Of a stretch of DNA of 64,000 nt, positions 59,186 through 64,000 are shown piece by piece. The stretch's first letter is position 1, and every line of letters begins with the position of its first letter. The notes beneath the pieces were generated by a model. It saw only the letters and a list, made by a program, of their open reading frames with translations, ran no database searches and was not told the DNA's origin. The position numbers and the translations under genes are program-made. The DNA is taken from the NCBI RefSeq assembly GCF_024298825.1, contig NZ_CP101153.1, positions 1 through 64,000 of the forward strand, written 5' to 3'. The DNA comes from Haloglomus salinum (GTDB lineage: Archaea > Halobacteriota > Halobacteria > Halobacteriales > Haloarculaceae).

Positions 59186-61648
59186 TCAGGCGTTGGTGGT
59201 CAGCTTCTCCTCCTCGATGCCCTCGACCGCGACGTCGAACTCGGCGTCCTCGCCGACATCGTAGACCAGTTCGGCAGTCTCACCGCCCGCCACGGAGGGT
59301 TGCCAGCGGACGAACCACTCCCCGTCCATCTCGACGACGCTAGCGTCCTCCACCTCCCCGGGGTCCACCGAGCAGATGTCGGTGATCTCGGGCTCGATAG
59401 TCGTGTCGTCGTTGTTCTCGACGGCGAGCGTGACGTGGCCGTTCTCCTGGCGCCGCTCGACGAGGACGTTGTTCATGATGCGGGCGAGCGAGTCCTCGAT
59501 GTGAAGCGGTTCGCGGCCGGTGACCTCGGTCAGTTTGTCGGCCATCTCGGGCAGTATCTCGGCCAGCGTGTCGCGCTTCTGCCGGCGCTCGCGCAGCGAC
59601 TGCTGCTTGTTGAGGTAGGTCTTCAGTTCGCGGGCGGCCTCCCGGAGAGCGAGTTCGATCTCGTCCTCTATCTCGGGGACGTTCGCGACGGCGTCCTTCG
59701 ATTCGCTCGTGAACGGAACGTTCGTCGAGGCGACGTGGACCATCAGCACGGCCGGCCCGTTCGGGATGCCGCTGCCCCCCGGCTGGTCGAGGTTGTAGTT
59801 CCGCCAGTTGATACGCTTGATGACGTCGACCGTCGCGCAGGCGCCGCGCTGGTAGACCAGCGGGACGCGGTTGGCGAACCGGAGGATGTCCACGGCCCCC
59901 TCCGATTCGAGGTCGCCGCCGTAGGCGATGCCGGCCTCGACGATGAACGGGTCGCCGCCGTGGACCTCGGCGTCACGGGTGCAGGTCGCGAAGAAATCCG
60001 CGTCGTACTCCTTTCGCAGCCCCGCATCCACGAGCTCCTCCGTGATGGGCGCCAGGCAGTCCGTCGGCGGCGAAAGGATGTCCGTCTCGCGCATCGCCTC
60101 CAGCAGCCGGGCCACGGAATCCCGATCGTCGACGAGCGCCGCCACGTTCGGCGGCTCCGTCTCGACGGTCCGGGCACGGGCCCAGAGCGCGTCGACGACG
60201 TTCTCGCGGGCGGTCTCGCCGAAGGTCTCGTCGTCACGCTCGGCCGTCCGCTCGGCGGCCCAGTCGACCCAGCCGGCCAGCGTGTCCCGGGTCACGCGGT
60301 CGCGAACCCCGTCGCCGACGCCGGGCTCGTGCATCTCGGCGTCGGCGAAGCGGTCGGCGATACGCCGGGCGAGGCCGTCGACGGCCGCGTCGTCCTTCCG
60401 GGTGGTGGTCGCCTCGTCGACGAGCCGGTAACAGTCCGGCTCGCGGCGGGTCGTCACCTCACCCCAGGCCGCCGCGACGGCGTTCTCGCGGACGGTACTC
60501 CCGAGACGGACGTCGTGCTCGTCCTCCACCTCGTCGGCTGCCGCCTCGACCGCGTTCTCGACATCGCCGTAGCCGACGTGGTCGTGCTCGTCGAGGGCGG
60601 CGTAGACCTCCTCGGCGAAGGCCTCGGTCGCCGTGGCGCCCTTGTTCGCCGTCGCGTCGACGACAGCGCCGACCACGTCGGCCTCGTCGGTCGTTCCGGG
60701 GACGCGCCAGGTCATCCCGCGGCCGAGCTGCCGGTCGCGGAAGGCGTCGACGACGTTGGTCGCGGTCGTGCCGCCGACGCGGGTGAACTCCCCCTGGAGG
60801 AAGCCACTGATGGAGTACGAATCCGTCGCCTCCAGCATCTTCTTCAGCGTCCCGAGCTCGACACCGTGCGGGTGGGGCTTGATCTCCTCCGTCTCGGCGG
60901 GAAGCTGGTCGGTCGCGCGCTCGAACTTGAGCGGCTCGTCCAGCCCCGGCTCGCGCAGTTCGATGCGGGCGTGCGGGTTGACGACCGCCGTGTGCTCGAT
61001 GTAGTCGTGGAGCTGCTGGCGGGCCCGCATGTTGCCCTCCATCTCCAGCTCGATGCGGGTGCCGTGTGGGCGTTCCCACGTGGTCGCCTCGTCGGTGTCG
61101 ATCTCGGGCTCGTTGGCGTCCGTGTCGATGATGAGTTCGAAGAACCGCGCGTCCCCACCGCGTGGTTTGGAGGTGATCTTCGCGGGCTTGCCGGAGGTGA
61201 GCTGCGAGTGCATGACCGCGGCGGAGATACCGATACCCTGCTGCCCGCGGTTCTGCTCCCGCTTGCCGAATCGGGAGCCGTACAGCAGTTTGCCGAATAT
61301 CTTCGGCACCTGCTCTTTCGTGATACCCGGACCGTTGTCCTCGACGACGAGCCGGTAGTAGTCACCGGCCTCCTCGATCTCGACGTAGATGTCGGGCAGG
61401 ATACCGGCCTCCTCGGTCGCGTCGAGGGCGTTGTCGACCGCCTCTTTGACGGCCGTGACGAGCCCCCGGGCACCCGAGTCGAAGCCGAGCATGTGCTTGT
61501 TCTTCTCGAAGAACTCGGCGATGGAGATGGCCCGCTGCTCCCGGGCGAGTTCCTCGGCGATGCCGTCGCCATCGCCGCCACCGCCGTTGCCGTCACCATC
61601 GCCGTCGCCACCCCCGTCACCGCCGAGTTCCGACTGGAACGAAGTCAT
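59186..61648 (-). CDS. top6B: DNA topoisomerase VI subunit B
   Basis: The ATPase subunit, 820 aa. The GHKL domain shows [34 protein letters not shown] and [19 protein letters not shown] with the Lys-containing transducer loop TSKPRGG. Helix-two-turn-helix and transducer domains and an Ig-like C-terminal region follow. After the first 8 residues there is a Gly/Asp-only stretch ([20 protein letters not shown]), a low-complexity insert. It diverges from gyrB, with a 203-base region between them. A GTTTTAC element lies about 30 bases upstream. Confidence 0.96.
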
Positions 61649-61710
61649 TCGTGTGGGACCCCTATCCCCCGGGAAGGTAAAACCTGCCCGCTACCGTGGT
61701 GAAAGTGGAA

Positions 61711-61749
61711 CGCGACCGACCGACATCCGGTTGCTGTCCGTCGGTCGCG
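61711..61749. promoter_or_regulatory. Strong dyad between top6B and gyrB
   Basis: CGCGACCGACCGACA (61711-61725) and TGTCCGTCGGTCGCG (61735-61749) form 14 of 15 paired bases around a 9-base loop. It lies about 60 bases from the top6B start and 100 from the gyrB start. A shared operator or a cruciform-forming element is possible. Confidence 0.75.
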
Positions 61750-61798
61750 TCCGGGAGGGTCGGGACTGACGGCACTCCAGCAGTACGTAGCTGACTTT

Positions 61799-61812
61799 CG
61801 CGCGCGCGTGCG
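61799..61812 (+). promoter_or_regulatory. Alternating purine-pyrimidine tract upstream of the gyrB TATA
   Basis: CGCGCGCGCGTGCG is a perfect 14-base alternating pyrimidine-purine tract. It is immediately upstream of TTTTAAA (61816-61822), in the BRE/TFB-contact position. Such tracts favour Z-DNA under negative supercoiling and high salt. In Halobacterium, a similar RY box in the bop promoter was linked to supercoiling control. Confidence 0.7.
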
Positions 61813-61815
61813 AGG

Positions 61816-61822
61816 TTTTAAA
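61816..61822 (+). promoter_or_regulatory. TATA element of gyrB
   Basis: TTTTAAA lies about 33 bases before the ATG of gyrB, giving a leader of a few bases. Confidence 0.65.
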
Positions 61823-61851: not shown

Positions 61852-63768
<1,917 letters not shown>

Positions 63769-63787: not shown

Positions 63788-63856
63788 ATGAAAATGGAAA
63801 CTAATAGAGTCACGTTGGAGTTCGACGCCGAATCGACGACGGAGGGCGAACGATGA
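63788..63856 (+). CDS. 22-codon ORF coupled to gyrA
   Basis: A short ORF ([12 protein letters not shown], then [10 protein letters not shown]) lies between gyrB and gyrA and ends in a TGA that overlaps the gyrA start (ATGA). The acidic composition matches haloarchaeal proteins. It may be a leader whose translation couples to gyrA, or a chance ORF. No TATA element or Shine-Dalgarno was seen before it. Confidence 0.4.
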
Positions 63857-64000
63857 GTTCGGACGTCCCGGACGTCCCCGACGAGGTCGCGGAACGGGTC
63901 GAGAGCGTCCGCGTCGAGGACGAGATGGAGCAGTCGTACATCGACTACGCGATGAGCGTCATCGTCGGGCGTGCGCTGCCCGACGCGCGTGACGGCCTCA
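63853..64000 (+). CDS. gyrA: DNA gyrase subunit A (N-terminal fragment, cut by window end)
   Basis: Only the first 49 codons are present, giving [20 protein letters not shown], then [20 protein letters not shown] and ALPDARDGL. This is the conserved GyrA N-terminus leading to the catalytic domain. The active-site Tyr lies beyond the window. The gene is truncated by the window edge, not by mutation. It follows gyrB after 84 bases and a coupled mini-ORF. Confidence 0.95.

Follow-up and report, generated by a model that had tools for sequence, protein, structure and literature searches.

Supercoiling and the Control of Gyrase Genes

In bacteria, the transcription of gyrA and gyrB is reportedly stimulated by DNA relaxation, a finding associated with Menzel and Gellert. 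Among haloarchaea, the bop gene of Halobacterium is said, since the work of Yang et al. in 1996, to carry an RY box of around 11 bp centred near -23, i.e., at or downstream of the TATA element. How archaea sense and set the supercoiling of their DNA is poorly understood, and gyrase itself was gained by archaea through gene transfer from bacteria (PMC9348778). In E. coli, it is chiefly the -10 region that is held responsible for the relaxation-stimulated transcription of gyrase (PMC4770202). In Haloferax, gyrB and bop are 'strongly induced (up to 20-fold)' by novobiocin, a gyrase inhibitor, as related by PMC9348778 in citing Holmes and Dyall-Smith 1991, and novobiocin also raises the gyrase transcripts in Halobacterium R1 (PMC3184054). 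The response of bop is opposite between strains, with a fall upon novobiocin in NRC-1 and a 5-fold rise in R1, while gyrase genes rise (PMC3184054). Z-prone tracts in haloarchaeal DNA are the theme of Kim and DasSarma 1996 on natural Z-DNA-forming sequences of Halobacterium, a study that, by its title, is concerned with their chromosomal distribution.

Here we describe an alternating tract at the haloarchaeal gyrB promoter that is a new form of supercoiling-linked promoter architecture, conserved and nearly gyrB-specific; it is possible that older primary papers had noted it before. A single gyrase promoter element that is fixed across a whole order makes the question of supercoiling sensing directly testable.

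The Alternating Tract of the gyrB Promoter

The window, i.e., the whole 64-kb stretch of DNA analysed (GC content 69%), contains gyrB, the start of its presumed operon partner gyrA and a divergent neighbour that is presumably top6B (Table 1). As the preliminary description had stated, a perfect pyrimidine-purine alternation of 14 bases, CGCGCGCGCGTGCG, lies directly upstream of the gyrB TATA element. The two are separated by AGG, so that the tract ends 3 nt before TATA, and the 14-mer is present as a single exact copy within the window. The gyrB transcript is expected to be near-leaderless.

Table 1. Coordinates of the tract, the promoter elements and the neighbouring genes in the window.
Feature	Position	Strand	Basis or remark
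Alternating pyrimidine-purine tract CGCGCGCGCGTGCG	61799..61812	+	Sequence; conserved in gyrB promoters
Conserved core CGCG-YR-CG (window form CGCGTGCG)	61805..61812	+	Near-constant register before TATA
Approximate BRE slot, window letters GCGTG	61806..61810	+	Inferred from TATA -26 and BRE -33..-37 (PMC8707807) and CGAAA (PMC4983044)
gyrB TATA element TTTTAAA	61816..61822	+	Sequence; TTTAW conserved in alignment
gyrB, DNA gyrase subunit B	61852..63768	+	ORF; ATG at 61852
gyrA start, gyrB operon partner, continuing beyond the window	63853..64000	+	Sequence; identity presumed
top6B, topoisomerase VI subunit B (presumed), divergent gyrB neighbour	59186..61648	-	ORF

Additional features are found between the two genes and in top6B. 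Midway between top6B and gyrB lies an inverted repeat of 16 nt (61710-61725 and 61735-61750; 94% complementary, 9-nt loop); it is partial in the nearest relative and absent from the next. The word AGGTTTTA is common to the divergent promoters of top6B and gyrB in mirror orientation, at 61678-61685 (-) and 61813-61820 (+), and the N-terminus of Top6B is represented here by a low-complexity Gly/Asp repeat (61565-61648, minus strand).

In haloarchaeal promoters, the TATA element starts near -26 and the BRE extends from -33 to -37 (PMC8707807), with CGAAA as the consensus (PMC4983044). This layout is found at gyrB as well, where the alignment of relatives has GYRCG, not CGAAA, in the BRE slot. The tract had been assigned to the 'TFB/BRE position', which is correct for its last 5-7 nt, as these fill the slot, while the remainder is located upstream of BRE. 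With GYRCG in the slot and a register fixed to TATA, the 3' part of the tract might represent a variant BRE for a particular TFB paralogue, the upstream CG repeat aiding the contact with TFB or the polymerase, in which case the tract would provide constitutive strength and not regulation. We regard this as quite improbable, since the tract reaches well upstream of -37 and a site for a general factor would not be expected to be used almost only at gyrB.

Conservation in Haloarchaea

GyrB orthologues were found at the genus, family and order level, and their upstream DNA was then compared. The sample comprises 144 gyrB promoters in which both ATG and TATA could be recognised; they represent a single haloarchaeal order, with 10 families and 57 genera. 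An alternating run of at least 10 nt is present within the 30 nt before TATA in 94% of these promoters, the longest run in that stretch having a mean length of 12.8 nt. In eight control windows of 30 nt located further upstream, the mean run is 4.3-5.1 nt and runs of at least 10 nt occur in 0-3%, while shuffling of the same 30 nt yields them in 2.3%. Thus, the conservation of the alternation in relatives, which the preliminary description had proposed as a check, held across 10 families.

At shorter distance, the 14-mer is identical letter for letter in three congeners even though the flanking sequences are dissimilar in two of them; the GyrB proteins are 97-98% identical in two of these congeners and 93% identical over 502 aa in the third. 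The tract is also present at the gyrB of Natronorubrum bangense and Natrinema thermotolerans. In most relatives, the gap between tract and TATA is 2-4 nt and TTTAW lies 36-41 nt upstream of the ATG. The tract is absent at the gyrB of two deeply diverged lineages (f6 and f8) and has a broken form in one genome (G185), and no such tract was found at the corresponding place in the gyrB records of Methanosarcina, Archaeoglobaceae, Thermoplasmata and Woesearchaeota.

By length alone, the tract is not exceptional. Indeed, the window has three alternating runs of at least 14 nt where a first-order Markov model predicts 4.2 +/- 2.2, a number that would suit a chance tract in GC-rich DNA. Since an alternation of 14 nt is ordinary here, the evidence must come from place and conservation. 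With flanks that diverge around a tract kept in one fixed place across 57 genera, a chance origin is scarcely credible, and we consider it ruled out by conservation.

These data also allow a comparison with the known systems. Like the bop RY box, which is tied to supercoiling, the gyrB tract is a short stretch of alternating purines and pyrimidines within the core promoter of a haloarchaeal gene, and it reaches the length of the bop box, both in the window and, with runs of at least 10 nt, in nearly all orthologues. It differs in being CG-rich and order-wide, and in lying upstream of TATA across the BRE, whereas the bop box is reportedly at or downstream of TATA, near -23. Of the parallel with bop that had been drawn before, the class of composition therefore stands and the position does not. 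With the bacterial gyrA and gyrB genes, the haloarchaeal ones have in common the induction upon DNA relaxation, as in a homeostatic loop, according to published data on Haloferax and Halobacterium; the difference lies in the promoter, as the property is assigned mainly to the -10 region in E. coli, whereas the haloarchaeal gene has TATA and BRE elements together with a conserved alternating tract.

Register and Core Word

When promoters are anchored at the TATA match, the core CGCG-YR-CG is located at -12 to -5 relative to the start of the match in 110 of 139 promoters, the core of the window being one nucleotide closer to TATA than in most relatives. The core words, counted without correction for relatedness, are CGCGTGCG in 93 of the 139 promoters, CGCGTACG in 18, CGCGCACG in 9 and CGCGCGCG in 1. 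The middle step is accordingly TG, TA or CA, with CG in 1/139. The two middle bases of the core vary between species yet stay pyrimidine-purine; indeed, of 61 genus-types, 51 have a YR step there, as compared to 16% of the CGCGnnCG sites in the surrounding loci. The alternation reaches beyond the core, as the preceding dinucleotide is YR in 88%, while the upstream part of the tract has a phase break in many genera (e.g., CGCGC-TC-GCGCG). A dyad operator centred on this break was considered and rejected, because the distance from the break to TATA is not constant. Close pairs of TATA-anchored promoters differ by 11 transitions and 7 transversions, a modestly raised transition fraction based on few changes; the comparison of words within genera is confounded by register shifts of 1 nt.

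Haloarchaeal activators bind adjacent to the BRE, as is the case for Bat at the bop UAS. The tract could similarly serve a sequence-specific protein of the gyrase operon alone, as its operator or upstream activating sequence; the alternation would then merely result from a CGCG-YR-CG site whose centre is flexible. The fixed register and the dominant word point to such a site, as do the position, which matches the binding place of activators beside the BRE, and the limitation of the centre to TG, CA or TA with avoidance of CG, considering that dyad symmetry makes TG and CA the same step. Against it, about one target per genome would imply a hypothetical single-operon regulator conserved across an order, and the alternation runs past the core. 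We consider this reading quite possible, and protein or TFB recognition altogether a close rival to structural sensing; direct structural sensing and protein recognition are the two leading readings.

Z-DNA Propensity and Proposed Structural Sensing

By our estimate with ZHUNT-type energies, the tract has the highest Z score of the 64-kb window; this is a ranking, and Z formation itself a prediction. With these energies, the predicted cost of the Z transition is low, the estimated critical sigma being around -0.04 for a 4-kb domain. A Z-optimised sequence would have CG at every step and no phase breaks, whereas in the gyrB promoters central CG is nearly absent and breaks are frequent, which indicates that the tract is not tuned for maximal Z-DNA. 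The preliminary description had also held that high salt favours Z-DNA in such tracts. The title of Kim, Yang and DasSarma 1996, as given in the references of PMC1971269, contradicts this, naming repeat length and supercoiling as stabilising factors 'but not salinity'.

An easily untwisted tract over the BRE of a gyrase gene is a plausible sensor. Under strong negative supercoiling, the alternating, Z-prone segment would deform and might then block the assembly of TFB and TBP on the adjacent BRE and TATA, keeping gyrB low; upon relaxation of the DNA, the segment would return to the B-form and gyrB could be transcribed. The alternation, the fixed place and the near exclusivity to the gyrase gene suggest that the tract is probably a switch matching gyrase output to DNA winding. 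The induction of haloarchaeal gyrase by novobiocin fits homeostatic autoregulation, and the self-regulating loop proposed earlier for gyrase agrees with this induction as published (PMC9348778, in its account of older work, and PMC3184054). Our inference here is twofold: supercoiling is sensed at this tract, and it is sensed by DNA structure instead of by a regulator bound there.

On this basis, our main reading, to which we assign a probability of roughly 0.45, takes the tract for a cis-regulatory element of haloarchaea, conserved and nearly gyrB-specific, that serves homeostatic gyrase control via structural sensing. Rather more doubtful is its strict form, namely a DNA-structural supercoiling sensor spanning the order and serving essentially one gene, in which the loading of TFB would be gated by the YR tract lying across the BRE, thus closing a gyrase feedback loop free of proteins. 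Structural sensing is favoured by the alternation being kept while the central bases change among TG, TA and CA, by the register and the run lengths as compared to the controls, by the top Z score together with the published novobiocin induction, and by the near restriction to gyrB, including accessory gyrB copies that lack the tract and loci that retain it without top6B. It is weakened by the avoidance of central CG and the many phase breaks, which are unexpected if Z propensity were maximised, by a single base-pair register and a dominant word that resemble sequence recognition, and by the transition fraction being only modestly raised.

Specificity for the Main gyrB Gene

The strong CG form of the tract adjoining TATA is nearly gyrB-only. 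In the genome of the window, a 12-nt alternation (YR12) followed by TTTAW within 6 nt has four matches: two that overlap at gyrB, a TATATA repeat and one other. CGCGCGTGCG before TTTAW has one match per genome in 10 of 19 genomes, and eight of these ten are at gyrB; the other two are within an ATP-synthase-like coding region and before an unrelated membrane-protein-like gene. Among the matches listed for 59 genomes, 33 YR12-TTTAW sites have at least 4 of 6 CG steps and 29 of these are at gyrB, where no site with at most 2 CG steps is located. A general regulon was sought and not found, the other YR12-TTTAW sites among the matches listed being mostly AT-type repeats. The shorter core, CGCGYRCG ahead of TTTAW, is less restricted, with typically 1-3 sites per genome, gyrB included. 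Another promoter-like site, either CGCGTACGAGTATTTAT or a sequence close to it, recurs away from gyrB within a single genus, g24 (G149:C1:32715, G176:C54:136680 and G163:C156:58189).

The divergent top6B is beside gyrB in 39 of 47 loci and the other eight likewise carry the tract, thus indicating that the tract belongs to gyrB. The main gyrB copies retain the tract, which is lacking in the accessory copies of two genomes and of a Salinibaculum plasmid. In some haloarchaea, this second gyrB is diverged (around 67-75% identical) and at least once plasmid-borne, with a tractless promoter region (L253, L254 and L275).

As for the protein, GyrB matches in several genomes end in the middle of long open frames of around 1000-1500 codons, near residue 502 in G003, G115, G091, G030 and G006 and near residue 435 in G034, G022 and G079. 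These breaks point to two sites of in-frame insertion, e.g., of inteins.
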